DNA of 64,000 nucleotides from Arenibacter sp. F26102 (GCF_023015865.1 NZ_JALKBC010000007.1:248001-312000); one strand, 5' to 3'; positions 29,326 through 51,236 are shown, counted from the stretch's first letter. The notes: generated by a model not told the origin, from the letters alone. Program-made: numbers and translations.

Positions 29326-29925
29326 TTAGCCGATAGATGAGCACCCCTTTTTTTTCTTAATACTAAAAAGTAAAAAAAGCACGGCTTCCACTTTAGCGCC
29401 CAGTTTTTCAGTAAGAATTTTAAAGGCACGGGTAATGTGGCCCTCCACAGTTTTTATAGAGATATTAAGATATTCGGAGATTTCAGTATGGGTAAGACCT
29501 TCTTTTTTATTCATTAAAAATATTTCCCTGCATTTGGAGGGTAAATTTTCGATTTCGGCATTCATTAGTTGTATTAAGTTGTCCAGTTCTTCCGGCTCTA
29601 TATCAACCACCAAATCAATAGCCTCAAAATATTTTTTCTCCAGATAAATTACCGGTTTATTTTTTCGGTATTGATTGATGAACTCATTATAAACCGATTT
29701 ATATAAATAACTCTTGATGGATAAGTCTGGATTAATTTTTTTTCTCTTAACCCAAATCTTAACAAATACGTTTTGAACAATATCTTCGGCAAAATCATGG
29801 TCATTGCACAAAGATTGGGCATAAGCACATAAATTCTGGTAATAAGAATCCATCAATAGATCATAGGCTTTTGGGTCACCTGAAATTAATCTTTGGGCCA
29901 AAAACAAGTTTTTATGATTTTCCAT
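29326..29925 (-). CDS. ECF-type RNA polymerase sigma factor (PUL 1)
   Basis: 199 residues. Region 2 runs from LIS.GDPKAYDLLMDSYYQNL to DIVQNVFVKIW, and region 4 from IENLPSKCREIFLMNKKEGL to HTEISEYLNISIKTVEGHITRAF (helix-turn-helix). It would direct RNA polymerase to the susC promoter once released by FecR. It is divergent from the FecR gene (30044) with a 118-base gap. A basic C-terminal tail (KKKKG) is seen. Confidence 0.9.
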   Translation of the reverse strand: MENHKNLFLAQRLISGDPKAYDLLMDSYYQNLCAYAQSLCNDHDFAEDIVQNVFVKIWVKRKKINPDLSIKSYLYKSVYNEFINQYRKNKPVIYLEKKYFEAIDLVVDIEPEELDNLIQLMNAEIENLPSKCREIFLMNKKEGLTHTEISEYLNISIKTVEGHITRAFKILTEKLGAKVEAVLFLLFSIKKKKGCSSIG

Positions 29926-30043
29926 TGAAATAGGTAATTCTTAATATTAGTTGGCAATAATAGTGAATATCTAAAAAAAATCATAAAAAAATAGAGGGGT
30001 ATTAAAATATGAAACGTATTAGGTAGTAATTATTGAATATTAC

Positions 30044-31207
30044 ATGGCTGAAATAGATAAATTAATCGTTAAGTTTTTAAATAAGGAAGCAAATCTTTCA
30101 GAGTTGGAAAAATTGGAGGAATTGCTTAAAAACGACCAAGGGATACATGTCTTCAATAGTTTTGTTAAAACACAATACCTAAGTACACTTTCCATGACAG
30201 AATTCGATATTAAAAAAGCCAAGGAATCTATAAAAGCTAGGCTAAAAAAGGGTGAACGGATAAAAAGGATAAACCATTATAAGAGAATGGCTGTAGCGGC
30301 CTCGGTTATGTTGGTGTTGGGAATGACATTTTATCTGTTGTATAACAACAACCCAGCAAATGGAACTAAGGTTAAGCAACAGCCCCATTTAATTGTTACA
30401 GGTACCGATAAGGCTATTCTTACCTTGGAAAATGGAGATGAAGTGGCTCTGGAAAAAGGAAAAAAATTCCAAAGTGGTAAAGTTAGCAGTAATGGGGAGG
30501 AGCTGGTTTATGTTGATAAAGAACAAAGTGATGTTGCTGTAAAAGAGCAAATGTACAATTACCTCACTATTCCCAGGGGAGGGCAGTTTTTTGTTAAATT
30601 GTCGGATGGGACAGAAGTTTGGTTAAACTCTGAAACCAAATTAAAATATCCAGTAGCATTTAGTGAAGATTATACTCGCAGGGTAGAATTAATCTACGGA
30701 GAAGCTTATTTTAAGGTTTCGCCAAGTACCGAGCACAAAGGTGCAGCATTTCATGTTATTACTAAATCCCAGGAAATAGATGTTTTGGGTACAGAATTTA
30801 ATATTAGGGCCTATAACAATGATCAAATTATGGCCACTACCTTGGTTGAAGGAAAAATTAAAATTAAAAAAGGGGAGGTTAGTGAAACCTTGGCGCCCAA
30901 TCAACAAGCTATAATTAACCATGAAGGTGATGAAATAGACATTCAGGAAATAGATGTGTCCCAAGAAATATCATGGATAAATGGTTTGTTTACCTTTAAT
31001 GAAAAACCTTTGGAGGAAATAATGACAGTACTTGCCAGATGGTATGATACAGAAGTTGTTTTTGAGAATGCCAAACAAAAAAAGTTTGTTTTTACCGGAA
31101 TATTGGAAAGAACCGAGGCGGTAGAAGATATTCTAAAGTTTATAGAGGCCACTAGTGAAGGCCAAATAACCTTCGAGATCAGTGATAAAACAATTATTAT
31201 TAAATAA
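30044..31207 (+). CDS. FecR-family anti-sigma factor (PUL 1)
   Basis: 387 residues: a short cytosolic part that would hold the sigma factor, one transmembrane helix (residues ~83-103, RMAVAASVMLVLGMTFYLLY), then a periplasmic FecR domain (PRGGQFFVKLSDGTEVWLNSETKLKYP) and a DUF4974-like C terminus (FTFNEKPLEEIMTVLARWYD). It passes the signal from the SusC transporter plug to the ECF sigma factor encoded divergently. A hairpin follows the stop. Confidence 0.92.
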   Translation: MAEIDKLIVKFLNKEANLSELEKLEELLKNDQGIHVFNSFVKTQYLSTLSMTEFDIKKAKESIKARLKKGERIKRINHYKRMAVAASVMLVLGMTFYLLYNNNPANGTKVKQQPHLIVTGTDKAILTLENGDEVALEKGKKFQSGKVSSNGEELVYVDKEQSDVAVKEQMYNYLTIPRGGQFFVKLSDGTEVWLNSETKLKYPVAFSEDYTRRVELIYGEAYFKVSPSTEHKGAAFHVITKSQEIDVLGTEFNIRAYNNDQIMATTLVEGKIKIKKGEVSETLAPNQQAIINHEGDEIDIQEIDVSQEISWINGLFTFNEKPLEEIMTVLARWYDTEVVFENAKQKKFVFTGILERTEAVEDILKFIEATSEGQITFEISDKTIIIK

Positions 31208-31211
31208 AAAA

Positions 31212-31250
31212 GGAAAAGGCCAGCACCTTCCACAGCAATAGCCTTTTTCC
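31212..31250 (+). terminator. Stem-loop in the FecR-SusC gap of PUL 1
   Basis: GGAAAAGGC (31212-31220) pairs with GCCTTTTTCC (31241-31250; one bulged base). The loop is 20 bases and the U-run sits in the 3' arm. It lies only 5 bases after the FecR stop and 47 bases before SusC. It may end part of the transcript, so that SusC levels depend on its own promoter. Confidence 0.55.
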
Positions 31251-31296: not shown

Positions 31297-34200
31297 ATGA
31301 AATTTAAATTAACCAAACGACCACCTTGTCCGTTGGGCAAAGTTATTTTACACTTTTTTATGAAATCCGTTATTTTCCTGTTTTGTGCGATTTCATTTGC
31401 ACTCACTCCCCTAAATGGTGAGGCCCAAGATGCTGAGATTATCATTGATACAGATATGTCCCTGACAATAAGACAAGCATTTCGGTTGATCAATAAACAA
31501 ACCGATTATAAGTTTATTTATCGGCATGACCAGATAAAAACTGCTCCAAATATCGACTTGAAAAAGGGGGTTATTAAAGCAGGAGAGCTGCTTGATAAAT
31601 GCCTGTCTCCAATTAGTTTTACGTATAATTTCACGGATGGTGGCACTATTGTCGTGAAGAAAAAATCGGCAAATACTTCAATTAGCGGTTCAACCAAATT
31701 AGCGGATCAAAATGTACAATTTCAAGTCAGTGGTACTGTGACAGATAAGGAAGGTGTTCCTTTACCTGGGGCCAGCATTGTAGAAAAGGGTACAATAAAT
31801 GGTACCCAGGCCGATTTTGACGGGAATTTTTACATTTCAGTGGCTGATGAGAATTCCATTTTAGAATTTTCCTATGTTGGTTTCGCTACAGAAGAGGTTC
31901 CAATTAATGGAAAGGCTATTGTAACCGTGAGTCTATTGGAAAGTGCTTCCAACCTGGATGAGGTTGTTGTAGTGGGTTATGGAACAGTGAAAAGAAGCGA
32001 TTTAACAGGGTCGGTAGGAAGTGTAAAGATGCCCGAAATGAACAAAGCTCCCGTGACCTCATTTGATGATGCCTTGGCCGGCCGTGTGGCGGGTGTATCG
32101 GTGATTTCAGGTGATGGCCAACCGGGTACACTTCCCGAAATTGTGATAAGGGGAGGAAATTCATTGACACAGAGCAATTCCCCACTATATGTTGTTGATG
32201 GTTTTCCATTGGAGGACAATGACAACAGTTCTATTAACCCTTCGGATATAGAATCAATTGATATATTAAAGGATGCCTCGGCTACTGCCATTTATGGGGC
32301 ACGAGGGGCCAATGGGGTTATAATGATTACTACCAAAAGTGGCAAGGAAGGAGTTCCGACCATAAGTTTTGATAGGTATTATGGGTTACAAGATGATATT
32401 AAGCGGATTGAAACCATGGATCCTTATGATTTTGCTGTTTTGCAGTTGGAGATTGACCCATTAAATTCACCTTATGTTTACTTGGAAGGTCCAGGTAGGA
32501 CTTTGGAGGATTACAAAACCTACGAAAAGATAGATTGGTATGATAAGGTGTTGCGTACTGGTGCCATGCAGAGCAATAATTTATCAATATCCGGGGGTAG
32601 TGGAAAAACAAAGTATTATATGTCCGGATCCTATTTAGAGCAGGAGGGAATATTTATAAATACGGGGTTTGAACGATATCAAGGCAGAATTTCTTTGGAT
32701 CAGGAACTTACCAATAAATTAAAGGCCAGGATAAATGTAAATTACAGTAACACCAAGAATTATGGGGTTATTGCAACAAACAATGGTGGATCTACCAGTG
32801 CCAGTTTAATGTATAGTATCTGGAGTTATCGTCCTGTAACCACTGCGTTTGATGTGGATCTTGAAGAAGAACTAAATGATCCGGAAGTGAATCCAGCGAC
32901 GGATTATCGGGTTAACCCTGTTCTCGAAGCTGAAAATGTACTGCGTGAATCCATTTCCCAGAACTTATTGGGGAATGCTTCGCTAGAGTATAGCATAATA
33001 AAAGGGTTGAAATTTAGAATGACGGGTGGTGCCAGTGATAATTTAAGGCAAAGCAATTCATTCTATAACTCACAAACGCGTAACGGAGGTCCCAATCATC
33101 CATCATCTAAGGGGCCTAATGGATCTCAATCATATTACCGTAGTACGACCTTTTCAAATGAAAATCTCTTAACCTATTCAAATAGGTTTAACAAGACGCA
33201 TTCATTGACTGTCTTGGCCGGTTATTCCCAACAAAAGAATAAAAGTTCATTATTTGGTGGGCAATCTGTTCAGATTACAGATGAAGAATTGGGTTTAAGT
33301 GGGTTGGATGTAGGTACCCCGACCAGTATTTCAGCATCCTCTTCCAACTGGGCGCTACAATCTTTTTTTGGACGACTTAATTACGATTATAAATCCAAGT
33401 ATATTTTTACTGCTACGGTTCGGGCCGACGGCTCGTCCAAGTTTGCACCAAAAAACAGGTGGGGGTATTTTCCTTCTGCAGCATTGGCCTATCGCCTGAG
33501 CCAGGAAAGTTTTATGAAACCTATCGAGTTTGTTTCTAATGCCAAAGTCAGAATAGGATATGGGGTGACCGGAAATAACCGAGTGAGCGATTTTGCCTAT
33601 TTGTCAGGAATAGGTACGGCTAATTGGACTGGTTATTCTTTCGGAAATGAGAATCCTACCCGAGGGACCTTTGTATCCGGATTGGACAATGCTGACCTTA
33701 AATGGGAATCCACTTCGCAATTAAATTTTGGTCTTGACCTTGGTTTTTTTGACAACAGGATTTCGTTTACAGGCGATTACTATTACAAGGAAACAAAAGA
33801 CCTGTTGCTAAATGCCCAAGTGCCCTACGCAACCGGATTCTCAACCGCATATAAGAATATTGGTGCTGTTTCCAATGAAGGTGTTGAGTTTGCCTTGAAC
33901 ACGGTAAATATAGATGGTGAAAATTTTACTTGGAAGTCTGACTTCAATATTTCATTTAACAGAAGTAAGGTATTGGCACTTGTTGATAATCAGAGCTCTT
34001 TGACATCTACCACATTTGCGGTATACAACAGCAATCCAAGTTATATAGCGCAGGTAGGAGAGCCGGTTGCCTTGTTTTATGGCGTTTTATATGAAGGGCT
34101 ATATCAATACGAGGATTTTAATCAGTTGACCAATGGAAATTATTCTTTAAAGGACGAAATTCCGGGCAACGGAAGTGCACGGGGCAATATATTACCGGGA

Positions 34201-34764
34201 TATGCGAAGTACACAGATATTGATGGGGATGGAAATATTAGTTTGAACGATTATACCGTTATGGGGAATCCTAATCCTGATTTCGTAGGGGGTTTTAACA
34301 ATTCGTTTACCTATAAAAACCTTGATCTTAGTTTCTTTTTTCAATTCTCTTATGGCAATGAAATCATGAATGCCAATCGGGTAGTTTTTGAAGGCACCTT
34401 CCTCACAGGTAGAAACCAATATGCCACTTATACTGATCGTTGGACCGAAGAAAACCCAACTTCGGATATTCCAAGGGCAAAAGGAGAACCTGCTTTCTTT
34501 TCCAGTAGAATTGTTGAAGATGGTTCTTTTCTAAGGTTAAAGACCGCTTCTTTGGGGTATACAATTCCTTCAGAGTTTTTGAAAGAATTGGGTATCAAAT
34601 CATTCAGGACATACGTTTCCGGTCAAAATATATTTACATGGACTGGCTATTCTGGTGTTGATCCTGAGGTTTCTACACGGAATTCAGCTTTGACCCCTGG
34701 CTTTGATTACTCTCCTTATCCAAGACAGAGAACCCTAATCACTGGAATTAATATAACATTTTAA
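31297..34764 (+). CDS. SusC/RagA-type TonB-dependent outer-membrane transporter (PUL 1)
   Basis: 1155 residues. After a signal peptide comes an STN (secretin/TonB N-terminal) domain (SLTIRQAFRLINKQTDYKF). This domain is typical of receptors that talk to FecR. Next come a carboxypeptidase-like beta domain (VSGTVTDKEGVPLPGASIVEKG), the plug (VVVGYGTVKRSDLTGSVG) and a 22-strand barrel ending with a terminal aromatic F. It imports glycan fragments caught by SusD. SusD follows after 26 bases. Confidence 0.95.
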   Translation: MKFKLTKRPPCPLGKVILHFFMKSVIFLFCAISFALTPLNGEAQDAEIIIDTDMSLTIRQAFRLINKQTDYKFIYRHDQIKTAPNIDLKKGVIKAGELLDKCLSPISFTYNFTDGGTIVVKKKSANTSISGSTKLADQNVQFQVSGTVTDKEGVPLPGASIVEKGTINGTQADFDGNFYISVADENSILEFSYVGFATEEVPINGKAIVTVSLLESASNLDEVVVVGYGTVKRSDLTGSVGSVKMPEMNKAPVTSFDDALAGRVAGVSVISGDGQPGTLPEIVIRGGNSLTQSNSPLYVVDGFPLEDNDNSSINPSDIESIDILKDASATAIYGARGANGVIMITTKSGKEGVPTISFDRYYGLQDDIKRIETMDPYDFAVLQLEIDPLNSPYVYLEGPGRTLEDYKTYEKIDWYDKVLRTGAMQSNNLSISGGSGKTKYYMSGSYLEQEGIFINTGFERYQGRISLDQELTNKLKARINVNYSNTKNYGVIATNNGGSTSASLMYSIWSYRPVTTAFDVDLEEELNDPEVNPATDYRVNPVLEAENVLRESISQNLLGNASLEYSIIKGLKFRMTGGASDNLRQSNSFYNSQTRNGGPNHPSSKGPNGSQSYYRSTTFSNENLLTYSNRFNKTHSLTVLAGYSQQKNKSSLFGGQSVQITDEELGLSGLDVGTPTSISASSSNWALQSFFGRLNYDYKSKYIFTATVRADGSSKFAPKNRWGYFPSAALAYRLSQESFMKPIEFVSNAKVRIGYGVTGNNRVSDFAYLSGIGTANWTGYSFGNENPTRGTFVSGLDNADLKWESTSQLNFGLDLGFFDNRISFTGDYYYKETKDLLLNAQVPYATGFSTAYKNIGAVSNEGVEFALNTVNIDGENFTWKSDFNISFNRSKVLALVDNQSSLTSTTFAVYNSNPSYIAQVGEPVALFYGVLYEGLYQYEDFNQLTNGNYSLKDEIPGNGSARGNILPGYAKYTDIDGDGNISLNDYTVMGNPNPDFVGGFNNSFTYKNLDLSFFFQFSYGNEIMNANRVVFEGTFLTGRNQYATYTDRWTEENPTSDIPRAKGEPAFFSSRIVEDGSFLRLKTASLGYTIPSEFLKELGIKSFRTYVSGQNIFTWTGYSGVDPEVSTRNSALTPGFDYSPYPRQRTLITGINITF

Positions 34765-34790: not shown

Positions 34791-36392
34791 ATGAAAAAAT
34801 ATATATTATCCATTCATATTATCCTTGTAGGACTTTTGACCTCATGTGTCAAACTAGATACGGAGCCCACTGACATGGCCAGCTCTCTTACCTATTTTAG
34901 TAATGAAACGGAAGTAGAATACGCGCTAAACGGTATTTACGATAAAATTGGCTCCAATTATATATTTGGTGGAGGCGATTGTCTCTCGACCATGTTCGAT
35001 GTAACTGATCAGGCTTGGCGAAGTACGAGCGTTTCTATCACCAGCTATGATTATCCGGCCTCCGATGTGCGTGTGAGTATCATTTGGAGGGAATTGTATA
35101 TAGGTATTGAAAGGGCCAATATTTTGTTGAAGAATATTGACGATGCTGATATGGAACAAGATGCAAAGAATGTTGTTATAGGGGAAGCCAAATTCCTTAG
35201 GGCATTTTATTACTTTATGTTGGTTCAAAATTACGGTGCCGTGCCCTTAAAAACCGAGCCCACCCAATCGGCAAATGATGTTTATTTTGAACGAACCAAT
35301 GCTTCTGAAGTATACGATTTTATTTATGCGGAAATGGTAGAAGCAGAATCCTTGGTGAACCCGATTACCGATTATTCCTATGCTGAAAGGGTTACGAAAT
35401 CGGCAGTGCAGGGAATTTTGGCAAGAGTAAGTCTATATAGAGCGGGATTCTTGAACAGAAAGGATAAATCCGCCGAACAAATACAGGAATATTATGAAAA
35501 CGCCTTGTTCTGGGCCGAGAAGGTAATCAACTCTGGCTTGCACGATCTTAACCCAGATTATGCGCAAGTATTTATCAACCTAATTCAGGATCAGTATGAA
35601 ACCCAAGAAAGTATCTTCGAAATAGGTCATTTTACCGATGGTGCATCGGGGGTTTTTGGGACGGCCGAAATCGGCGATTTAGGGAATAATAATGGTATTG
35701 CCCAAAGGATTTTGGAATACGGATATTCAGGGGCGCAATATAGGATCACTGCTAAACTATACAATGCTTTTGAATACAATGACCAATATCAAGATACACG
35801 AAGGGATTGGTGTATTGCTTCTTATCGATTCGTTCGAGATTCCAATCCACCTGTAAAAGAGTATTGGTCCGAAGTTTATGTAGGAACTTCAGAAGATCCA
35901 AACAGGGTAGTAAATAGAAATATCGGTAAATTCAGAAGGGAATATGAATTGCAAGAGGATAAAATTAAAAATTATAACTCAACCAACAACCCGCTGTTGC
36001 GTTTTTCCGATGTATTGCTAATGGCCGCCGAAGCCGAAAACGAATTGAACGGACCCACACCCAAGGCGCATGAATATTTAAATCGGGTGCGGAACAGGGC
36101 GCAGGTTTCTGAAATTGAAAACATTAGCTCTAAGGAGGCATTCCTTGATATTCTTCAGGATGAGCGGTATACCGAATTGTGTTTTGAGGGCTTTCGTAGA
36201 ATGGATTTGATCCGCTGGGGTATTTTGGTGGAGGAGATGAGGGAAATGGTGGATTATAATAATGCCAATAACTTGGCTTATTCAGTTTACAATCGATCAG
36301 GGTTAAACATTTCCGAAAAGGATTATTATCTGCCCATTCCGGTTAGGGAGCTTTCATTAGATCCATTGTTGACCCAAAATCCTGGGTGGTAA
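34791..36392 (+). CDS. SusD/RagB surface glycan-binding lipoprotein (PUL 1)
   Basis: 533 residues with a lipoprotein signal (GLLTSCVKLDTEP). The TPR-rich helical core and the C-terminal RLGRMDLIRWG-type segment (CFEGFRRMDLIRWG) with a final YLPIPVRELSLDPLLTQNPGW match SusD. It captures glycan on the outer surface and forms the lid of the SusC channel. It is followed by the DUF5017 gene, probably from the same transcript. Confidence 0.95.
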   Translation: MKKYILSIHIILVGLLTSCVKLDTEPTDMASSLTYFSNETEVEYALNGIYDKIGSNYIFGGGDCLSTMFDVTDQAWRSTSVSITSYDYPASDVRVSIIWRELYIGIERANILLKNIDDADMEQDAKNVVIGEAKFLRAFYYFMLVQNYGAVPLKTEPTQSANDVYFERTNASEVYDFIYAEMVEAESLVNPITDYSYAERVTKSAVQGILARVSLYRAGFLNRKDKSAEQIQEYYENALFWAEKVINSGLHDLNPDYAQVFINLIQDQYETQESIFEIGHFTDGASGVFGTAEIGDLGNNNGIAQRILEYGYSGAQYRITAKLYNAFEYNDQYQDTRRDWCIASYRFVRDSNPPVKEYWSEVYVGTSEDPNRVVNRNIGKFRREYELQEDKIKNYNSTNNPLLRFSDVLLMAAEAENELNGPTPKAHEYLNRVRNRAQVSEIENISSKEAFLDILQDERYTELCFEGFRRMDLIRWGILVEEMREMVDYNNANNLAYSVYNRSGLNISEKDYYLPIPVRELSLDPLLTQNPGW

Positions 36393-36421
36393 TTATATTT
36401 CAAATACAAAATAAAATAGAT

Positions 36422-37369
36422 ATGAAAAATATATATTCGATGATAGTACTGGCATGTGCCTTTCTTACCTCTTGCCAAGATGATAGCGTAGATTTACCTA
36501 CATTGAACGTTTCCGTGGAAAAATCTGAGTATGTGGAAGGTGAGCTTGCACAATTTCAATTGACGGGAAATGCCGATTTTGTTACTTTTTTTTCAGGGGA
36601 AGTAGGTAGCAGACATGAATTCTCGGGGCGGACTTCTGCAGAGGGCACTCCGATAATGAGTTTTAATTCGGCTTTGGCCAATGGATCTCAGGAATCTTCT
36701 CTTCAATTATTGATCTCCCAAGATCTCTATATGTTGGGTACAAGAGATAGTGCCACAGTGGCCCAGGGAATTACTACAGCTACTTGGACGGATATTACCG
36801 ATCGTGCAGAGTGGGCCACAAGCAGTTCGAACAAAGGTTCTGGGGATATTGATTTGACCGATTTTTCGGATAAACCGGTTTATTTAGCTTTTAAGTACAA
36901 AGGCTATCCGGGATCTGTTCAAAATAAATGGACTATTTCCTCCCTTGCGGTAAAAAATAATCTAGCTGATAGTACCTCATATAACATTGCGAACCATGGT
37001 ACATCAGCTATTAATAATTATGGAGTTTCCACCACGGTTAGCCCTGGTTGGGTGGGCAGTAATTTGGTCAACTCCTACAATTGGGGGGTTAGTTCCAGTA
37101 ACTTTGTAATTACAGGTTCTACTAACGCCGGTACAGCTGCCGAAGCCGAGGCATGGTGTATCTCTGGGCCCATTGACCTGACCCACGTAACACCGGATGT
37201 TGGGAAATTGGTTAAGAACATGTCGGCGTCAATGACCGATTACGAATACCAGTTCAATACGGCCGGGGAATATAAGGTATCCTTTGTCGGCAAGGCAAGC
37301 AATATTTATGGTGCGGAGGAAGTGGTTAAAGAATTAGATGTCGTAGTACAACCCTTGGAAGAGGACTAG
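36422..37369 (+). CDS. DUF5017-type surface lipoprotein (candidate accessory glycan-binding protein)
   Basis: About 315 residues. The ATG at 36422 gives MKNIYSMIVLACAFLTSCQDD, a lipoprotein leader. The mature part is all-beta with Ig-like repeats (ERxxY..GE.AQFQLTG near the N terminus, AGEYKVSFVGKASN near the C terminus) and a central domain that has the DUF5017 character. Such proteins sit in the SusE/F position and probably bind the glycan on the cell surface. A terminator follows. Confidence 0.75.
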   Translation: MKNIYSMIVLACAFLTSCQDDSVDLPTLNVSVEKSEYVEGELAQFQLTGNADFVTFFSGEVGSRHEFSGRTSAEGTPIMSFNSALANGSQESSLQLLISQDLYMLGTRDSATVAQGITTATWTDITDRAEWATSSSNKGSGDIDLTDFSDKPVYLAFKYKGYPGSVQNKWTISSLAVKNNLADSTSYNIANHGTSAINNYGVSTTVSPGWVGSNLVNSYNWGVSSSNFVITGSTNAGTAAEAEAWCISGPIDLTHVTPDVGKLVKNMSASMTDYEYQFNTAGEYKVSFVGKASNIYGAEEVVKELDVVVQPLEED

Positions 37370-37378
37370 CGTTTTTAG

Positions 37379-37523: not shown

Positions 37524-39467
37524 ATGGAATATCAAAAAATAAATACAAAAATCTTCGCTCTGTTGTTTGTAATTTATTCGCAAACACTATTCGCCCAAGA
37601 TCTAACATCTTATAAAGACCGAAAAAGTCAGGTTGTTAATTCACTTAAGGATGTTACTCTAGTTGAAAGGGGAAAACATGGCCTGCCCAAGGCCATTGCC
37701 CGACTTGAATCCGATCCATACGACGAGGCGGCATTGACCTATATTACCAACGACCTGGATAATCGATATCAAAGCATGTTCGACTTTCCTGGGATGGCCC
37801 TGGCACTATGTCGATACTGGGACAGCTTTAATGAAAAACAGTTGAAAAAGATTAAAAGGGATCTGGAAAAGTTGGCTAAATCGGATAAGCAGGGAGGGGA
37901 AGGCTTCTTAGGTCACGGTACTGAGAACCATGCCACTATGATGTGGTCCAGTGCCTATCTTTTTGGGCAGCTGTTCCCCGATGCCCGTTGGGCGAATGGC
38001 ATGAGCAGTACGGAATTGATGGCCGATATGAAGGAGCGTTTGCGCAAGACCTTTAAAAACGTATATAATCACGGGTATGCAGAATACCTTTCCACTACTT
38101 ATGAAGTGGTTATGAACTTCCCAGTAGAAATGTTAATGGAATATGCCGAGGATCCTGAAGTCAAAGCCATAGCCGAAGCGTTTATGCTTTATAAATGGTC
38201 CCTTTTGTCCTTGAACAATTTTGAAGGAACTATTTTGGCACCCTATGGTAGGATGAACACACAGCAGGATCATCTTTCCGATGAGAGTTATATCTCTGCC
38301 ACTACCTATTACAATTGGTTGATGTGGGGCTGGGGCCCTGCAACGGGAAATGTGAAGTTGGATCAATTTGACGATTATCAGGAAGCAAGCTATACTATTT
38401 TTGCGGCGCTGTCCGGAGTGGTGCCCCCAAGCGTCTTTTTTCGCTTAGCTTCCAACGATTCTGCCCCGTTTGAACTAAAAACTTCGGCCTCCTCCTTTGG
38501 ACCCTTTGGAACTGGAGTCCCTCACTGGATGATGCGCAAAGTATTTCGCAACAAGACCTATGCCATCGGGACAGGAAATTTTCGCTGGACACCCGGGGGT
38601 GATTATGCCGACCACGATGCCAATGGGTTCAACATTTCCTATCATAGCCCGGACCGATTTAATTATATCAATTGCTTTCACCCCTACTGGTATAGCGACG
38701 GTGACGAACAGGATCGCACCGCGGATACCTGGTATAAGGGGACCAACTCCCCCTTTCAACAGACCGCTCATTCCAAGAACACGGTGATCACACTCTTTAA
38801 TATTCCGCAAAAGGATCCATGGGTCAACACTCCGAGTGAGACCAAATGGGCCTGGCGGGACGGCCATGCAGATAATCTGATAAAAAGGGGGATGTTGCGC
38901 TATCCGAAATCGGTAGATGAAAAAGTAGAGGAAAACGGCTGGATCTTTCTTCGGGAAGGAGATACCTATATCGGGATCAGACCCTTAAAAAGCTATTATG
39001 AACAGACCGATTTGAAAGGGAAAGGATTGGATGGTTTCAATATTGTGAAAAGCGATCACGCCCAGACTGGTTTTGTATTCGAACTCGGAAGTAAAAGTGA
39101 ATCGGGTACCTTCGATAAATTTCGCCGAACCTTGAATAAAAATCGGCTTTCCATAGATTGGAAGAATATGAGGGTTACTTATACCGATAGTCAAAAGGAG
39201 AAACTACAGATTCAATATCAGGAAGGGCTGCCTATAGCCCCAGAAAATAAAATGCCGGAACATTTGTCTAGAAAGGGTATTAAAGGGATGGCAGAATCGG
39301 TTCCCGTTGTAAAAATCAAAAATAAATCAGAGTTAGGGTACCGCCAATGGCCAATGATAGAGAGTCCGTCTATTAATATGGATAATAGTATTCTAAAAAT
39401 TGATGATGGTCAAACAGAAATCACGGTTAATTGGCAAGGAAACATTCCGGTGATTACTGCAAATTGA
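37524..39467 (+). CDS. Candidate polysaccharide lyase with alpha/alpha toroid and C-terminal beta domain (family not assigned)
   Basis: 647 residues with a signal peptide (FALLFVIYSQTLFAQ). Residues ~30-290 are all-alpha. They include GHGTENHATMMWSSAYLFG near 130-148, with His131, Asn135 and His136. An Asn/His pair in such a helix is what toroid lyases use to neutralise a uronate, but here it is only a candidate. Residues ~330-640 are beta-rich and rich in Trp and Tyr, like the C-terminal sheets of heparinase- or alginate-lyase-like proteins. It opens the enzyme block and the GH105 genes follow, fitting the role of first cutter. I do not recognise the exact family. Confidence 0.55.
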   Translation: MEYQKINTKIFALLFVIYSQTLFAQDLTSYKDRKSQVVNSLKDVTLVERGKHGLPKAIARLESDPYDEAALTYITNDLDNRYQSMFDFPGMALALCRYWDSFNEKQLKKIKRDLEKLAKSDKQGGEGFLGHGTENHATMMWSSAYLFGQLFPDARWANGMSSTELMADMKERLRKTFKNVYNHGYAEYLSTTYEVVMNFPVEMLMEYAEDPEVKAIAEAFMLYKWSLLSLNNFEGTILAPYGRMNTQQDHLSDESYISATTYYNWLMWGWGPATGNVKLDQFDDYQEASYTIFAALSGVVPPSVFFRLASNDSAPFELKTSASSFGPFGTGVPHWMMRKVFRNKTYAIGTGNFRWTPGGDYADHDANGFNISYHSPDRFNYINCFHPYWYSDGDEQDRTADTWYKGTNSPFQQTAHSKNTVITLFNIPQKDPWVNTPSETKWAWRDGHADNLIKRGMLRYPKSVDEKVEENGWIFLREGDTYIGIRPLKSYYEQTDLKGKGLDGFNIVKSDHAQTGFVFELGSKSESGTFDKFRRTLNKNRLSIDWKNMRVTYTDSQKEKLQIQYQEGLPIAPENKMPEHLSRKGIKGMAESVPVVKIKNKSELGYRQWPMIESPSINMDNSILKIDDGQTEITVNWQGNIPVITAN

Positions 39468-39496
39468 TGCATTTTATGAACAATAGATATAGGAAA

Positions 39497-42745: not shown

Positions 42746-43873
42746 ATGCATACTAATACACTAACCATTTTATTTTTAACACTTTTTACTTTTTCGGTAT
42801 CCGGACAGAGCAATTACAATTTAAAAAAGTTTCCAGAGGGGAAAATGCCCCAGGAGATAGGCATGCGAATTGCTGAAAAGTTTCTGAACACTTCCCATTC
42901 GCAATACGGAAATACTAAGCCGCCAAAACCGCCAAAGCAAATTACCTATCCAGATGTGTGTACCTGGCTTGGGGGTATGTGGTTTGCCGAAGCAACAAAA
43001 AACAATAAGCTTTTTAGTCGATTTGAAGATCGTTTTCATCCCTTGTTAAATGAGGAGAAGAACTTACTTCCCAAGCCCAACCATGTGGACAATAATGTAT
43101 TTGGGGCGGTTCCTTTGGAACTGTATCTGCAAACCGGGAAGCAAAAATACCTTGAACTGGGATTGAAATATGCAGACACCCAATGGATATTACCCAAGGA
43201 TGCTAAGCCAGAAGAGGAAAACTGGGCAAAGAAAGGTTATTCTTGGCAGACCCGTATTTGGATCGATGATATGTTCATGATTACCGCAATACAGGCTCAG
43301 GCATATAGGGTTACAGATGATTCCAAATATATCGATAGGGCCGCCAAGGAAATGGTTTTGTACCTTGATGAAATACAATTGGATAATGGGTTGTTCTATC
43401 ATTCTCCCGAAGCGCACTTTAGCTGGGGCCGAGGGAATGGATGGATGGCAGTTGGTATGGCCGAGATTCTTCGGATACTTCCAAAGAAGAACCCCAATAG
43501 AGAACGTATAATGGAAGGATACCACAAGATGATGTCAGCTTTACTGAAATATCAGGAAGAAGATGGAATGTGGCGACAGATCATTGACGATGAGGAAGCC
43601 TGGAAAGAGACTTCGGCTACGGCCATGTTTACCTATGCCATGATTACTGGAGTTAAAGAAGGCTGGCTGAATAAAAAAAATTACGGGACGGCGGCCAGAA
43701 AAGGTTGGTTGGCCCTAACCGACTATATCAATGCCGATGATGAGCTTACAGAGGTGTGTGCCGGTACGAACATTATGAACAGCAGGGAACATTATATGAA
43801 CCGGCCACGCATTGTTGGCGACCTGCACGGGCAAGCACCTTTGCTCTGGTGTGCGACAGCTTTGGTAAGATAA
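42746..43873 (+). CDS. GH105 unsaturated rhamnogalacturonyl/glucuronyl hydrolase
   Basis: 375 residues with a signal peptide (TILFLTLFTFSVSGQ). The six-hairpin fold carries the catalytic aspartate in RIWIDDMFMI (Asp174 or 175). The substrate-binding motif FSWGRGNGWMAVG is typical of YteR-type GH105. The enzyme adds water to the 4,5-double bond left by polysaccharide lyases and frees the unsaturated uronic acid. This is the clearest sign that the operon handles uronic acids. Confidence 0.92.
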   Translation: MHTNTLTILFLTLFTFSVSGQSNYNLKKFPEGKMPQEIGMRIAEKFLNTSHSQYGNTKPPKPPKQITYPDVCTWLGGMWFAEATKNNKLFSRFEDRFHPLLNEEKNLLPKPNHVDNNVFGAVPLELYLQTGKQKYLELGLKYADTQWILPKDAKPEEENWAKKGYSWQTRIWIDDMFMITAIQAQAYRVTDDSKYIDRAAKEMVLYLDEIQLDNGLFYHSPEAHFSWGRGNGWMAVGMAEILRILPKKNPNRERIMEGYHKMMSALLKYQEEDGMWRQIIDDEEAWKETSATAMFTYAMITGVKEGWLNKKNYGTAARKGWLALTDYINADDELTEVCAGTNIMNSREHYMNRPRIVGDLHGQAPLLWCATALVR

Positions 43874-43907: not shown

Positions 43908-44744
43908 ATGAGAAAGAAGATTATTCTAATTGGTTTGTTTCTAGGTACGGTTTCACTTGTTTTTTCACAGAAAAAGCGAATCACCTATAAACTGATCGAA
44001 GACCTATCCTATATCGATGTCTACGAAGGGGAAAAGGACGATTATATGAACGAGCGTTGCAAACTGGATATCTATTATCCCGAAAACCAAAAAGATTTTG
44101 CAACTGTTGTTTGGTTCCACGGTGGCGGACTCACAGGAGGGGAAAAATCCATTCCCAATGATTTGAAAAATAAAGGCAATGCAGTAGTTGCGGTCAATTA
44201 TCGCATGCACCCCAAAGTGAAAAACCCTGTCTATATTGAGGATGCTGCGGCTTCGGTGGCCTGGGTATTTAGGAATATTGAAAAATACGGAGGTAATAAT
44301 ACAAAGATTTTCGTTGCCGGTCATTCGGCCGGGGGGTATTTGGCCAGCATGGTGGGCCTAGATAAAAGTTATTTGGCAAAGTACGGTATCGATGCCAATT
44401 CAATTGCCGGACTGATTCCCTTTAGTGGTCATACAATTACCCATATGACCGTGCGGAAAGAAAATGGTGTAGGCAACAAGCAACCGGTGGTAGATAAATA
44501 TGCGCCCTTGTTCCATGTGCGTGCCGATGCTCCGCCATTGGTACTGATAACCGGCGACCGTGAAATAGAAATGTTGGGCCGCTATGAAGAAAATGCCTAT
44601 ATGTACCGGATGATGAAAGTTGTTGGGCATCAAGAGACCAGCCTTTATGAAATGCCTGGTTTCGACCACGGAACAATGACCTGGCCGGCCAGTCATATAA
44701 TGCAAAAACATATTAAACAAATTTTAAAATCGAAACAAAACTGA
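43908..44744 (+). CDS. Secreted alpha/beta-hydrolase esterase
   Basis: 278 residues with a signal peptide (LIGLFLGTVSLVFSQ). VVWFHGGGLTGGEKSIP is the HGGG oxyanion motif and VAGHSAGGYLASM carries the nucleophile serine. GFDHGTM provides a histidine candidate. The fold is that of the hormone-sensitive-lipase/esterase type, common for feruloyl- or acetyl-esterases. Function: removal of acyl groups from the glycan, inferred from context. Confidence 0.82.
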   Translation: MRKKIILIGLFLGTVSLVFSQKKRITYKLIEDLSYIDVYEGEKDDYMNERCKLDIYYPENQKDFATVVWFHGGGLTGGEKSIPNDLKNKGNAVVAVNYRMHPKVKNPVYIEDAAASVAWVFRNIEKYGGNNTKIFVAGHSAGGYLASMVGLDKSYLAKYGIDANSIAGLIPFSGHTITHMTVRKENGVGNKQPVVDKYAPLFHVRADAPPLVLITGDREIEMLGRYEENAYMYRMMKVVGHQETSLYEMPGFDHGTMTWPASHIMQKHIKQILKSKQN

Positions 44745-44772: not shown

Positions 44773-45570
44773 ATGAAAAACCTCAGAATCAATTTTTACT
44801 TAATTCTAATATTTGCATTTCTTACCCAGCCGGGTAAAGCCATTACGAATGACCTTCCGAATAAGGTAGCCGACACTGTCCGGATATTGACCATTGGCAA
44901 TAGTTTTGCAGATAATGCCTGTAAATATTTGAAACAAATTACAGAATCAGTAGAAGGCAGCAATATTATTATTGGGAAGGCAAATATTGGGGGATGCTAT
45001 TTGGAAAAACATGCAGACCTAATGAAGCAAAGTGAATCGGATCCAACACTTAGGCCACATAATGGCAAGAGCTTAAAAGAGTGGTTGTTAACGGATGATT
45101 GGGATATTGTTACCATTCAGCAGGTTAGCCATCTTAGTTTCAAGGCGGAAACCTACCAACCCTATGCAGATGAAATTCGGGATTACGTAAATAAATACGC
45201 GCCCCAGGCCAAAATTTATATTCATGAAACCTGGGCCTATGCCCCAGACTGCCCTCGTTTGAAGGGCTTTGGGATAACATCGGATCAAATGTTCCAAGGG
45301 CTGAAGAATAATTACGAAGTCCTTTCCGAACGTTACAATTCACCCATTTTACCATCTGGTGACGCCTTTAATAGATCTTTCAAGAAAACGGAAGAGATCG
45401 ATCTTTGGAGCTCAAATGATCGGTTCCATGCCAACGAAAATGGTTGCTACCTTGCCGCCTGTGTTTGGTTTAAGGAGTTGTTTGGGAAATCACCAAAAAA
45501 AATAAAATTCAGACCAGAGCAAATATCGAAAAAAACGGCTCGATACTTAAGAAGGGTTGCTTCAAAGTAG
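44773..45570 (+). CDS. DUF4886 SGNH-type hydrolase
   Basis: 265 residues with a signal peptide. RILTIGNSFADNA holds the SGNH block-I serine and DRFHANENG the block-V Asp/His pair. DWDIVTIQQVSHLS is the middle family motif. This matches DUF4886, often found in PULs next to uronate hydrolases. It probably acts as another esterase in the same pathway. Confidence 0.78.
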   Translation: MKNLRINFYLILIFAFLTQPGKAITNDLPNKVADTVRILTIGNSFADNACKYLKQITESVEGSNIIIGKANIGGCYLEKHADLMKQSESDPTLRPHNGKSLKEWLLTDDWDIVTIQQVSHLSFKAETYQPYADEIRDYVNKYAPQAKIYIHETWAYAPDCPRLKGFGITSDQMFQGLKNNYEVLSERYNSPILPSGDAFNRSFKKTEEIDLWSSNDRFHANENGCYLAACVWFKELFGKSPKKIKFRPEQISKKTARYLRRVASK

Positions 45571-45616: not shown

Positions 45617-47116
45617 ATGAAACGTCGTAAATTTTTAGAAACAATACCACCAGTAGGATTGGGGCTTTTTGTTGTTCCGAATTTAACGCTTTGTTCTTCT
45701 CCCGACCAGTGGAAATTAAAAGAGGCAACTAGAGTTCCTTTGAGTGTTGTAGGTAGTTCTGCTAAAATTACTAGTGATAAAAGGATTGCATTTGGATGGT
45801 CTCCACACGTACTTAATCCTGATGACGAAGTGCTGTTGAAATCCAAGCAATTGCCCCGGGATGCATATGTTTTTTTACGCATGACCGTAGCGTTGGAAAT
45901 GTGGGACCAGGCCATTTTACAGGTATATGTTCCGGATGAAGGGGAAACCCAGTTAGGGATTCTTGATATTAGGCATTCTTCGGTTCTGGTTCCTTATGAA
46001 TTGAAGATTGATAGTAAACATATTCCTTTGATCAATAAATACGGCATAAAAGTAAAGCTTCTTACCTCCAAGCCTTTTGGTTTTTTTGAGCAATCCTCAA
46101 CAGAAGGTAGTAATAATGTATTCACCCCGCATTTGCTATTGTCTCCTAGTGAAAAGGGTACAGTTCCTGATTTTTTAAATTGCTTTATGTCGATTGATTC
46201 GGTTCAGGCATTTGGTTGGCGGGAAGGTACCGTACTGGATGGCCTCTGGCAGTTGTATTCCTTGAAGAAAGAGGAGAGGGCATTGACGGCAATTAAGGAT
46301 CATTTTGATTTGTTCTTTGAAGGGGAGAATTTAAAGTATGAAAACTCTAGGAACGACCCCAGAGATAACAGAATTGATGGAATAGAGTCCACCATTCCGT
46401 ATGCAACCCTGGCCCGGATTCATCCGGACCACCCCATATTAAAAACGGTCATAGAGGCCTGGGATAGTTACGCCCAAGAAAATGGTATGGTCACCGATGG
46501 GCCTACGGTAACTGCCGAAGGATGTTATACTGTGGCCTACCCAATGGCCGTGATAGGCAAAGTATGGAATGATCCTGCTTTAAAAAAGAGAGCGCTCGAA
46601 CAATTAAAACATCGATTTGTACTTATAGAAAATGGTAATCTAAATCTAAGGTACCATAGTGATAAGGGATCATATAGCTATAAGAACTGGGCACGAGGGG
46701 CTGCATGGACCTTACTGGGTTTTGCCAGAACACTATCCGAACTAAAAGGAGAAATTCAAGATCGGGAGATTATCAATAAATTCAAGGAAGGGGTAGATAA
46801 TGCCATTTCTATGCAGAAGGCGAATGGATTATGGAATGGGTTTATGGATACGGATAATGCGCCCGATACCTCTGGGTCTGCCGGGATTTCCGCCGCTATT
46901 TTGATCGGGGTAAAGGAAGGTTTTTTGCCCATATCTTACGGGCAGTATGCTGAAAAGTGCTGGACGGCATTGCAAAACTATTTGACTCCTGATGGTCTTT
47001 TAAAGGAAGTTTCTCAGGACAATAGGGGTGGGCTACAATTACAACAGGGTAATTATAGGGTAATTGCCCAAATGGGAATGGGATTGATGGCCCAATTATA
47101 TGCAAATAGGGAATAG
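45617..47116 (+). CDS. Secreted GH88/GH105-like hydrolase with N-terminal beta domain
   Basis: 499 residues. The N terminus (MKRRKFLETIPPVGLG) is Tat-like, and a cysteine shortly after could be lipidated. The first ~170 residues are a beta domain. The rest has six-hairpin repeats with KNWARGAAWTLLGFARTL (the WxRG..W motif of GH88/105) and ARIHPDHPILK. The catalytic aspartate candidate is in RNDPRDNRIDGIES. It differs widely from the first GH105 gene, so the two may act on different ends or different linkages. Confidence 0.82.
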   Translation: MKRRKFLETIPPVGLGLFVVPNLTLCSSPDQWKLKEATRVPLSVVGSSAKITSDKRIAFGWSPHVLNPDDEVLLKSKQLPRDAYVFLRMTVALEMWDQAILQVYVPDEGETQLGILDIRHSSVLVPYELKIDSKHIPLINKYGIKVKLLTSKPFGFFEQSSTEGSNNVFTPHLLLSPSEKGTVPDFLNCFMSIDSVQAFGWREGTVLDGLWQLYSLKKEERALTAIKDHFDLFFEGENLKYENSRNDPRDNRIDGIESTIPYATLARIHPDHPILKTVIEAWDSYAQENGMVTDGPTVTAEGCYTVAYPMAVIGKVWNDPALKKRALEQLKHRFVLIENGNLNLRYHSDKGSYSYKNWARGAAWTLLGFARTLSELKGEIQDREIINKFKEGVDNAISMQKANGLWNGFMDTDNAPDTSGSAGISAAILIGVKEGFLPISYGQYAEKCWTALQNYLTPDGLLKEVSQDNRGGLQLQQGNYRVIAQMGMGLMAQLYANRE

Positions 47117-47153: not shown

Positions 47154-48023
47154 ATGCGACTAGCAGTAACAGTCATAATTCTATTATTTACAGGTGTCAG
47201 TATTTATTCACAGAATAATACTGATGTAAGCCTGTTTTTCAATAAGGACAGTACAAAATACCTGAATGAGGTAAGCTCTGAAACAGGGGATTTGTTCAAT
47301 TATTTAGGGCATCATGGACCCGCTATAGAAAATGAATGGCTAGGTTTTAGAATGTATTTTAATAAAACAGGAGCTATTGATATTTACTCTAAAACAAAGG
47401 CTGGCCTAGAGTTGAGGAAAGCACGTTGGTACCCTACCACAGATCAGCAAAAAGATGGATGGGGGGCGGATTATTACAAAGTGGGCTATACCGTTGGCCT
47501 TGGCGGTATTCGATTGTGGGATGGAGAAGAGGTGGTGCCATTAAATCCCATAAGTAAAAGAACTGGACGCGTGGTGAAGGAGGGAACGATTTCTTATATG
47601 GAAATGCTTTCAGAAGGAGTTCCGTATAAAAATACCAAGGTGGATATATTGGTAAGGGTAACCGTTTTTACAGGTATTCGAAAAGCTAAAGTTGAAGCAT
47701 TTGCGTTGACTTCCGATGAGGTGCAATTTGTTACAGGGATTAATTATCATGCGGGTCAAAAAGTAAAAAACGAATCGGATTATATTATAACATGGGGCTT
47801 ACATCCTGAAGATGTGGCTTTGGAAAAAATAGAACTTGGGGCAGCACTGTTATTTGATTCTAATGATTTTGATCAAAAAATACAGGAAGAAGATCAATAC
47901 CTGTTGGTCTCAAAACCCACAAAACAAATCGAGAGTTGGATAATTTCTGCCAACACAAAGGAATCGGATATCAATACTTTTGAGAAGTTTGTAGCGCTAA
48001 TCGATAAGGAATCCCAGTACTAA
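47154..48023 (+). CDS. DUF4861 secreted protein
   Basis: 289 residues with a signal peptide (AVTVIILLFTGVSIYSQ). Mostly beta, with LGHHGPAIENEWLGFRMYFNKTGAIDIY near the N terminus and GWGADYYKVGYTVGLGGIRLWDG in the middle. These are DUF4861 traits. The family is repeatedly found with uronate-cleaving enzymes, but its reaction is not established here. It is followed by a 237-base gap. Confidence 0.75.
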   Translation: MRLAVTVIILLFTGVSIYSQNNTDVSLFFNKDSTKYLNEVSSETGDLFNYLGHHGPAIENEWLGFRMYFNKTGAIDIYSKTKAGLELRKARWYPTTDQQKDGWGADYYKVGYTVGLGGIRLWDGEEVVPLNPISKRTGRVVKEGTISYMEMLSEGVPYKNTKVDILVRVTVFTGIRKAKVEAFALTSDEVQFVTGINYHAGQKVKNESDYIITWGLHPEDVALEKIELGAALLFDSNDFDQKIQEEDQYLLVSKPTKQIESWIISANTKESDINTFEKFVALIDKESQY

Positions 48024-48260
48024 TCAAGGACCCTAAATAAAATAAATGATAAAGGGGGTTTAAAGAGTATTGATTAACCAATTTCTGCCGTTTCCCCATA
48101 GATTTTCTATTTCAGATAAATAGGTATCATAGGTAAATCTCAAAAGTTGTATTTAAATGGCATGGATATTATTCTTTTTATGTCCTATGAGGGAGGTATT
48201 GCCTAGAAAGAAAAGTAAAACAGTAATGACCAAAATAAACATTAATACTATAATAATTAT

Positions 48261-51236
48261 ATGAAGCATTTATTAGTATCCTTTTTTGCCTTTTGGCTTT
48301 TAATGGGTTGTAATTCTGACAAGTCTAAATTAGATAAAGAACGGCCTAGGGAAGTCTGGGTTTTTAGATCGGTTTTGGATGAAAGACCACGAATGGCTAC
48401 AGCAGCGCTAAACGACAACCTTTGGGTTGCCTATGATACCCAAACCGCAACCTTATATAAGGCTTGGAACGGAGGAGTATTTTTTGATGGAGCAGTTTAT
48501 ACCACAAAGCACGGACCCCAACCTACCAGTTTGGGTTATGCCTATTTTTCACATAACGAGGAATGGGTGCTTTGGAAAGATGGTGGTCAGATTACTCCGA
48601 TAATACAGTACAAAGGCCATAGGTTTAAGGATGGGGAAGTAATTTTTAAAGTTGAACTAAGAACTCCAGAAGGGGATATTATTTTGGTAGAGGAATCACC
48701 TAGATACCAGCGTAAAGGAGATAAAAACGGATTGGTCAGGTATTTTACGGTGGCCAACCCTACAGATTATCAAGTGGGCTTGAGTACGGTTATTACCTCT
48801 CTTGAAGATGAAGGTGATTTTTCCACAGATGGTACGTTTGGAGAAATAATCAAGGAAATTATCACCTTTGAGGATGGTGAATTTTTTGAAATTGAGGGAA
48901 CCCTTCTTTTGAACAAAACCAACACAGAACTAAGTATCCTTTTTCATCCAGGTTTTGATAAACTCCAAAGGAAGGCAATAGCTTCCGGGTCCGATCAGGA
49001 CACACAGAAAACGGGTATAGCTCTAGTGGCGATGAACGATTGTGTCGCCTGTCACAACGAAACGGAAAAAACTGTTGGACCTTCATATATGAGCATTGCG
49101 GAAAAATATGGGGATGATACGGGAACGATTGAAAAATTAGTAGGCAAAATAAGATCGGGCGGAAGTGGTGTCTGGGGCCAGGCGGTGATGACCCCACATC
49201 CGGATCTGGATGATAATGATCTGGAGGACATGGTGAAATATATCCTTGCCTTGGATGACAATGGCAATAATGACTCCGAAGGAAACCCCATAAAATATAC
49301 CCTGGGAGAAAAGTCGAATCCATTGAAATTCGAGTCGGATATGGAGCCAAAAAATGGTACCGGCCTTGTGGCCCATCTTTATGTCAAAGATCCCAATGAC
49401 AAGGATAGGAAATATACCGAAGCCCCTATACAGAATGGGGTGACCAGCAGTGTCCATGTCCTTTCTGCCCAAGACTTTGGTAGTCATAACTCGGATATAA
49501 AAATTGTTTTTCAAGGCCAGATCACCGTAGAAAAGGAAGATAGTTATGTGTTCAGGTTGATTAGCGATGATGGTTCACAACTTTATATTGATGATAAACT
49601 GGTTGTTGATAACGGGGGCGCCCATGCTTTTCAGGCAATAGACGGCGAAACCTATCTCAAGGCGGGAAAGCATACGATAAAGATAGATTTTGAACAAGGT
49701 GGTGGAGGCGCTGCCGTCTCCTTACAATGGTTCGATAAAAAAAGCAACATGTTTACCGTTGTCCCGGAGGAAGTACTTTCCTATTCTTCCAAAGATTTTA
49801 TAAAATCCGAACCATTGCCACCTCCCCCTCCACAAGAGGTAAATAAGCCAGGGGATAAGGCATCCCTGGCTGCTGTCCACCCTTCCTTTTCCTTATACGA
49901 CATGAGGCCCGATGGTTTTGAGCCAAGGGTAGGGGGGATGGACTTTAAGTCGGACAGCACCCTTGTTCTAAGTACCTGGGATGCCGATGGCTCGGTTTAT
50001 TACATTAAAAATTACTTGGCCAAGGACCGAAATGACATCGAGGTTAAAAGAATAGCTACAGGCCTGGCCGAACCCTTGGGCGTTAAAGTGGTGGGCAATG
50101 AAATATACGTGTTGCAGAAACACGAGCTTACAAGGCTTATGGACCATGATGGTGATGAGGTTATAGATGAGTACGAGACAGTTAGTAATGATTGGGGGGT
50201 ATCCGGCAATTTTCATGAATTCGCATTTGGTCTAGCTTTTAAGGAAGGGTATTTCTATGCCACATTGGCAACCGCTATTATGCCTGGTGGGGCAAGCGCT
50301 GACCCGCAGATCAAGGATAGGGGCAAGGTGGCTAAAATAAATCCAATGGATGGTACAGTCGAATTTATAGCGTCGGGCCTTAGGACACCTAACGGAATAG
50401 GGTTTAATGAAGATGAAGAGATTTTTGTAGCAGATAACCAAGGGGATTGGCTACCTGCTTCTAAGATAGTCCATATAAAAAAGGGGGAATTCTACGGGTC
50501 CCGGTCGGTAGATTTTGATGGTACCAAAGATTTGAAGGAGAAACTTCCTGTGGTTTGGTTGCCTCAGGACGAAATAGGAAATTCTCCCAGTCAGCCTACC
50601 TACTTAAACCTAGGCCCCTATAAAAACCAACTGATACATGGTGAAGTTACCCATGGAGGAATCAAGAGGGTTGCCTATGAAGAGGTTGAGGGTCAATTAC
50701 AGGGGAGCGTATTTAGGTTTTCGCAGGGTATCGAGGCTGGTGTAAATAGATTGGTGTGGGCCCCAGATGGTTCGTTGATTGTGGGAGGCATAGGTGTCTC
50801 GGGCAATTGGGGGCATTATGGAAAGCTTAAACATGGACTCCAGCGTTTGGAATATAACGGTAGTTCCACATTTGAAATGCTACGGATAAATGCGCTTTCC
50901 AATGGCTTTGAAATTGAGTTGACAGAACCATTGGCCAAAAATATCACTTTAAATCCCGAGCATTTGGAAGTGGAAACCTGGTATTATTTACCCACCCCAG
51001 AATACGGAGGCCCTAAACTGGGGAAAGCCGACATGAAATTGTCACGGATACAATTATCCAAAGACCGTAAGAAGGTATTTGTGGGTTTAAATGGATTGAA
51101 GGAAAATCATATGGTTTATTTTCACTTGAATCCTGAATTAAAAAGTGACTCTGGGAAGAGTTTGTGGACTACCGAGGCTTGGTATACCCTGAACAAAATA
51201 CCCAAAGAGAGGTCGGTAAAAGAAAAGGACTATTAG
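48261..51236 (+). CDS. Large multidomain lipoprotein: cytochrome c domain, PA14 domain and beta-propeller
   Basis: 991 residues, a lipoprotein (FWLLMGCNSDKSK). From the N terminus: an unknown beta domain (~30-230). Then a cytochrome c fold with the haem site CVACH at 261-265 and an axial Met candidate in VMTPHP. A PA14 sugar-binding domain (~365-500, LISDDGSQLYIDDKLVVDNGG) follows. A beta-propeller (~545-870) has repeats such as GLAEPLGVKVVGNEIYV and ASGLRTPNGIGFNEDEEIFVADNQGDW. The propeller resembles sugar dehydrogenases that use PQQ or related cofactors. It may oxidise a released sugar and pass electrons to the haem. It is the last gene of PUL 1. Confidence 0.8.
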   Translation: MKHLLVSFFAFWLLMGCNSDKSKLDKERPREVWVFRSVLDERPRMATAALNDNLWVAYDTQTATLYKAWNGGVFFDGAVYTTKHGPQPTSLGYAYFSHNEEWVLWKDGGQITPIIQYKGHRFKDGEVIFKVELRTPEGDIILVEESPRYQRKGDKNGLVRYFTVANPTDYQVGLSTVITSLEDEGDFSTDGTFGEIIKEIITFEDGEFFEIEGTLLLNKTNTELSILFHPGFDKLQRKAIASGSDQDTQKTGIALVAMNDCVACHNETEKTVGPSYMSIAEKYGDDTGTIEKLVGKIRSGGSGVWGQAVMTPHPDLDDNDLEDMVKYILALDDNGNNDSEGNPIKYTLGEKSNPLKFESDMEPKNGTGLVAHLYVKDPNDKDRKYTEAPIQNGVTSSVHVLSAQDFGSHNSDIKIVFQGQITVEKEDSYVFRLISDDGSQLYIDDKLVVDNGGAHAFQAIDGETYLKAGKHTIKIDFEQGGGGAAVSLQWFDKKSNMFTVVPEEVLSYSSKDFIKSEPLPPPPPQEVNKPGDKASLAAVHPSFSLYDMRPDGFEPRVGGMDFKSDSTLVLSTWDADGSVYYIKNYLAKDRNDIEVKRIATGLAEPLGVKVVGNEIYVLQKHELTRLMDHDGDEVIDEYETVSNDWGVSGNFHEFAFGLAFKEGYFYATLATAIMPGGASADPQIKDRGKVAKINPMDGTVEFIASGLRTPNGIGFNEDEEIFVADNQGDWLPASKIVHIKKGEFYGSRSVDFDGTKDLKEKLPVVWLPQDEIGNSPSQPTYLNLGPYKNQLIHGEVTHGGIKRVAYEEVEGQLQGSVFRFSQGIEAGVNRLVWAPDGSLIVGGIGVSGNWGHYGKLKHGLQRLEYNGSSTFEMLRINALSNGFEIELTEPLAKNITLNPEHLEVETWYYLPTPEYGGPKLGKADMKLSRIQLSKDRKKVFVGLNGLKENHMVYFHLNPELKSDSGKSLWTTEAWYTLNKIPKERSVKEKDY

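Follow-up and report, generated by a model that had tools for sequence, protein, structure and literature searches.

A probably exchangeable 22-kb locus of Arenibacter sp. F26102 encoding a predicted uronate lyase with GH105 and esterase-type partners

Introduction

Polysaccharide utilization loci (PULs) of Bacteroidota that are controlled by an extracytoplasmic function (ECF) sigma factor and a FecR anti-sigma factor share a common order, in which the ECF/FecR pair is followed by SusC, SusD, a surface lipoprotein and the enzymes in one operon. The same order is found at positions 29326-51236 of a 64 000-nucleotide stretch of DNA from Arenibacter sp. F26102 (GCF_023015865.1 NZ_JALKBC010000007.1:248001-312000; the whole stretch is called the window here), where a 647-amino-acid protein (37524-39467), predicted here to be a uronate lyase, is encoded together with a member of glycoside hydrolase family 105 (GH105) and four types of esterase. 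Genome-based classification of ester-rich uronic-acid polysaccharides is difficult, as family libraries lack the key lyases. To a preliminary description of this locus the present analysis adds its unity as one cassette, the lyase prediction, a core conserved across relatives and a lean towards a fucose-type substrate.

The enzyme set of the window has no counterpart among the characterised ECF/FecR-controlled PULs in the open-access papers searched. The preliminary description would have been contradicted by a near-identical characterised PUL; none was found in those papers, although a subscription paper or a PUL database could hold one, and papers on Maribacter arabinogalactan PULs with GH105 and on North Sea PULs contained no matching locus. 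In the ulvan PUL of Formosa agariphila the lyase product is likewise handled by GH105, but the window cassette has no sulfatase, GH78 or GH3 and so lacks the sulfatases and rhamnosidase that mark an ulvan PUL. Also absent from the cassette is the GH28/GH78/GH106/PL9/PL11 set (PL, polysaccharide lyase family) that marks a rhamnogalacturonan-I PUL.

Three groups of described lyases come closest to the 647-amino-acid protein. The PL35 enzymes GAGase II and GAGase VII are its best Foldseek matches (E 1e-7 and 3e-7) and have a similar Asn/Tyr/His triad (Asn192/Tyr246/His401 in GAGase II; PMC12088678), but identity is 9-11% with no profile match, and the window protein differs in having a His after the Asn and a longer Tyr-His spacing. 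The PL17 alginate lyases (Alg17C and the Zobellia PL17) and PL15 resemble it in fold and in an Asn-His pair, the catalytic set of the PL15 exo-heparinase being Asn336-His337/Tyr390/His555 (PMC12088678), but show no sequence match; the His136-Tyr193 spacing of 57 in the window protein compares with 56 in Alg17C (His202-Tyr258; residues from PDB titles). The PL33 hyaluronan/gellan lyases (BT4410) have the same fold and an Asn238/Tyr291/His444 triad (PMC11848413), at 8-10% identity.

The locus is a single cassette with the anatomy of a PUL

The block is a PUL by anatomy and synteny. The stretch 29326-51236 contains every component named in the preliminary description (ECF/FecR, SusC/SusD, DUF5017, a lyase candidate, four esterase types, GH105, a GH88/105-like protein, DUF4861 and a haem/PA14/propeller protein), with the SusC and SusD genes adjacent (31297-34764 and 34791-36392), and synteny with A. 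algicola and two Maribacter species showed that the co-located enzymes stay together. The genes had been described as lying all on one strand; this holds from FecR onward, where every gene is on the plus strand, but the ECF gene (29326-29925) is divergent, on the minus strand.

The PUL block is also one physical cassette of 22.3 kb (29161-51454) whose gain or loss involves the entire unit. With blastn, window positions 29345-51404 align to Arenibacter algicola E3M18 in one piece (22.1 kb, 90.6%), and the sequence directly beyond the alignment in that strain is, on both sides, not shared with the window. In the congener G003 the block is absent, and 8 bp separate the left flank (up to window position 29160) from the right flank (starting at 51455). 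The end-to-end alignment and this empty site together show that the PUL behaves as one unit. Consistent with this, among 18 congeners a close orthologue of the 647-amino-acid protein was found only in the window genome and A. algicola. The borders proposed previously lie within about 220 bp of the cassette ends. With respect to mobile-element ends, the left border has neither direct nor inverted repeats and the right border only short, weak repeats, and no integrase is encoded in the block. The molybdopterin dehydrogenases encoded upstream were considered as members of the system and rejected, since G003, which lacks the block, has them and they do not precede the block in A. algicola.

The 647-amino-acid protein is a predicted uronate lyase

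The 647-amino-acid protein had no Pfam or NCBIfam match at a threshold of 0.001, and no sequence match in the PDB at E<=1, and the profile of its family matched nothing in the PDB at E<=10. Its comparison with PL families covered those with a solved structure, via the PDB, and none of these had significant sequence or profile similarity to it. An alignment of 17 proteins of its family, reaching down to 18-23% identity, gave an AlphaFold2 model with a mean predicted local distance difference test score (pLDDT) of 81.1 and a predicted template-modelling score (pTM) of 0.85; a first model, for which ten close homologues were used, had a low pLDDT of 52.7, and its lyase-led Foldseek list was not relied on. 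When the 17-member model was searched against the PDB with Foldseek, all matches at E<=0.001 (28 of 28) were polysaccharide lyases, representing PL8, PL12, PL15, PL17, PL33, PL35, PL39 and the xanthan and hyaluronate lyases, and the model has their two-domain fold, an alpha-toroid plus a beta-sheet domain.

Across the 17 proteins, down to 18% identity, Glu134-Asn135-His136 (at a helix start), Tyr193 and Arg243 are invariant and His386 is nearly so. Asn135-His136, Tyr193 and His386 would thus correspond, in the published order, to the catalytic set of Asn or His, Tyr and His. Several observations weigh against assignment as a lyase that feeds GH105. Whole-chain Foldseek template-modelling scores are modest (best 0.44, mostly 0.3-0.4, at 8-11% identity), as would be expected for two hinged domains at such identity; the Tyr193-His386 spacing of 193 exceeds the about 153-156 of PL35 and PL33; the geometry of the putative Asn135/Tyr193/His386 triad is read from the sequence; and, in taxa other than Arenibacter, Maribacter and Kriegella, no GH105 was present in the stretches covered around the lyase.

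It is improbable that the protein is instead an oligosaccharide dehydratase like P29_PDnc of ulvan degradation, or an epimerase or inactive relative sharing the lyase fold: ulvan PULs do contain a dehydratase whose product goes to GH105 (PMC8511951), and the PL33-like fold is common to epimerases too (PMC11848413), but P29_PDnc requires Asp248, an Arg and Lys303 and not Tyr306, whereas here the Asn and Tyr are invariant and the His nearly invariant, and the cassette holds no other depolymerase candidate. On the basis of model and conserved residues, the protein is very probably a uronate lyase. It probably represents a new lyase family of known fold and mechanism, new, that is, relative to the PL families with a solved structure. 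It has a signal peptide and, with N termini judged by eye, no lipobox, and is therefore probably periplasmic or secreted; lipoboxes are present in the SusD, DUF5017 and cytochrome proteins. As its predicted fold is clear, its putative catalytic set well delimited and its GH105/esterase context compact and conserved, the enzyme can be tested directly and could link a PUL type common to Arenibacter, Maribacter and Kriegella with its substrate.

GH105 and the proposed pathway

The GH105 protein, an unsaturated uronyl hydrolase by family (42746-43873; PF07470, 210 bits; PDB 3k11, 1nc5), belongs to the same family as YteR, and its Asp174 aligns with the catalytic Asp143 of that enzyme. This residue, together with the predicted fold and triad of the previously unassigned lyase candidate, bears out the earlier suggestion that the locus is directed at uronates. 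In the GH88-like protein (45617-47116; PF07470, 105 bits, residues 195-472 only), on the other hand, the family domain is present but the column of the GH105/YteR catalytic Asp holds Glu, as in all four homologues aligned, so that counting it as a second unsaturated-uronyl hydrolase would be premature. It carries a 190-residue N-terminal extension with a Tat-like signal. A unit of the DUF4886 and GH88-like genes was also found apart from the lyase, in Kriegella (L056) and as a second copy in M. aquimaris (L051).

In the pathway that we propose, occupancy of SusC would turn the operon on through ECF/FecR, and SusC, SusD and the DUF5017 protein would bind and import polymer fragments, as known for these families. 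The four esterase types may remove acyl groups. The 37524-39467 protein is predicted from its fold and residues to carry out beta-elimination next to uronic acid, with Asn135 and His136 neutralising the carboxylate and Tyr193 and His386 acting as acid and base. GH105, judging by its family and its Asp, would then take off the 4,5-unsaturated uronyl end made by the lyase, and its product could enter the KduI route; KduI, which serves a later step of unsaturated uronate catabolism, is encoded in the organism's own genome. Taken as a whole, the locus is likely to be a PUL that is complete in itself, can be exchanged horizontally and is directed at an O-acylated, 4-linked uronic-acid polysaccharide.

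Other genes of the cassette

The regulatory and uptake genes comprise the ECF sigma-70 factor that diverges from the operon (PF04542/PF08281), the FecR anti-sigma factor (30044-31207; PF04773/PF16344), the SusC TonB-dependent transporter (TIGR04056, 974 bits) and two lipoproteins with the lipobox LTSC, SusD (PF07980, PF14322) and the DUF5017 protein (36386-37369; PF16409). SusC has an N-terminal extension that can be aligned to the N terminus, with its STN domain, of the SusC encoded nearby, in keeping with regulation of the transporter by ECF/FecR. The DUF5017 protein, probably a surface glycan-binding protein, accompanies SusC/SusD also in Dyadobacter and Prolixibacteraceae.

The esterase-type genes begin with a SASA/CE20-type acetylesterase (39431-41419; PF03629; PDB 9ega, 9h4u, 7kmm), whose listed TTG start overlaps the lyase gene and whose real start is probably later. 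They continue with a DLH/AXE1-like alpha/beta-hydrolase esterase (41438-42721; PF01738, PF05448; weak match to PDB 3fcy), a BD-FAE-type alpha/beta esterase (43908-44744; PF20434) and a DUF4886 protein (44773-45570; PF16227), which may be an SGNH-type esterase. A DUF4861 protein (47154-48023; PF16153) is followed by a lipoprotein that combines cytochrome c, PA14 and PVC-type propeller regions (48261-51236; PF00034, PF07691, TIGR02604). The latter was rejected as a core part of the PUL: among the loci read it is kept only in the Arenibacter version and was not found in those of Maribacter, and it is therefore treated as an Arenibacter addition.

Orthologous loci in relatives

Maribacter luteus and M. 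aquimaris retain ECF/FecR/SusC/SusD/DUF5017, lyase, SASA, DLH, GH105 and BD-FAE genes and, further downstream, those for DUF4886, the GH88-like protein and DUF4861. Inserted in both are genes for a GH141-like protein, a GH65C/MGH1-like glycosidase, DUF1080 and two GFO/IDH/MocA oxidoreductases. In Kriegella the lyase, GH105 and BD-FAE genes are contiguous behind a different, non-orthologous SusC/SusD, with added genes for GH16, a GH141-like protein, CE15 and an SGNH esterase. The lyase-GH105-esterase core is thus kept despite a change of transporter, and elsewhere the lyase is paired with an SGNH esterase: one of ~420 amino acids is adjacent or fused to the lyase in two Larkinella species, the fusion occurring naturally in Larkinella rosea (L012:9971-13084), and homologues are located near the Dyadobacter lyase and with that of Kriegella. 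In locus L013, a 620-amino-acid protein overlapping the lyase was considered and set aside, having only tetratricopeptide repeat-like similarity and giving no clue to the substrate.

Among Bacteroidota, the lyase family also occurs outside marine Flavobacteriaceae, in Larkinella, Dyadobacter, Prolixibacteraceae and Tannerella, so that the polymer need not come from algae. Two Bacteroidota loci (L096:8645-17068 and L099:8404-17829) each have distant lyase paralogues in tandem; next to these is a large gene whose N-terminal motif is shared by both loci and which in L096 encodes a GH38 alpha-mannosidase, a context that could fit a glucuronomannan-type polymer.

Nature of the polymer

Heavy O-acylation of the polymer, suggested previously from the four esterase types of the cassette, is supported by the esterases in most contexts read, including the further CE15 and SGNH esterases of relatives. 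A Pfam scan found no sulfatase family within the cassette, in agreement with the earlier argument against an ulvan-like polymer, and the lack of sulfatase, rhamnosidase and rhamnogalacturonan lyases argues against both ulvan and rhamnogalacturonan-I. The preliminary description, which is partly supported overall, left the choice between a glucuronan-like and a rhamnogalacturonan-like polymer; the missing rhamnosidase and rhamnogalacturonan lyase weigh against rhamnogalacturonan-I, and the GH29, GH141 and GH95 of relatives against plain glucuronan.

The cassettes of relatives suggest that natural polymers of this kind often carry fucose too. We tentatively prefer a fucosylated, acylated heteropolyuronate, such as an exopolysaccharide of fucoglucurono type from algae or bacteria, with the Arenibacter cassette serving the uronate backbone and other loci the fucose. 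In the Maribacter versions GH29 lies upstream, beside the ECF gene, and the GH141-like gene lies inside; three lyase paralogues of Prolixibacteraceae lie beside GH29; and in a congener (L098:1716-18029) a membrane-anchored distant lyase paralogue belongs to a PUL with two GH28-like proteins, GH29, GH95 and SASA. Genome G000 has nine GH29 matches elsewhere. The window cassette itself, however, has no fucosidase, GH141 also holds a xylanase (PMC12786026), and GH29 is frequent in the genomes compared (2-30 matches per genome), so that its co-location is only suggestive and the fucosylated polymer is a lean, not a result. Rather doubtful is the bolder proposal that the 37524-39467 protein founds a PL family outside all present ones, acting on an acylated, probably fucosylated uronate polymer without a characterised degradation pathway, with its gene carried by marine Bacteroidota on an exchangeable cassette of 22 kb and by non-marine ones in different gene surroundings.

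An acylated homopolyuronate, such as acetylated glucuronan or acetylated alginate, for which lyase, GH105 and esterases would be enough, is unlikely but would fit the bare Arenibacter set, in which there is no other clear glycosidase family. To our knowledge, alginate loci do not typically include GH105 and esterases. The Asn-His pair resembles that of PL15 and PL17, and the catalytic His is reported to be conserved in alginate lyases (PMC12088678); PL15 and PL21 enzymes with that His act on iduronate, however, so that the residue does not name the substrate. The Maribacter and Kriegella extras (GH141-like, GH16, GH65C/MGH1-like, DUF1080 and oxidoreductases) exceed the needs of a homopolymer.

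A rhamnogalacturonan-type or other galacturonate polymer is improbable, since its marker families are missing from the cassette by Pfam and GH105 is not pectin-specific, even though the best GH105 matches include YteR, an unsaturated rhamnogalacturonyl hydrolase, a distant lyase paralogue is located with GH28-like genes, and Kriegella has a CE15 gene of the kind known in some pectin PULs (PMC10807430).

Neighbouring genes

The flanks of the cassette, with molybdopterin-dehydrogenase genes at 26401-29160 and a response regulator/histidine kinase pair at 51460-54060, are adjacent in one order in G003; in G016, G013 and G014 they occur in reversed order, about 130 bp apart. Two sulfatases outside the cassette (11818-13842 and 21756-23408) surround a resistance-nodulation-division efflux operon. 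Downstream, a minus-strand open reading frame of 614 amino acids (54306-56150) had no Pfam match, and a second ECF/FecR/SusC/SusD set begins beyond it (56506-63509), the ECF-FecR DNA of which is 76.7% similar to a stretch of A. algicola DNA close to where this strain carries the cassette.

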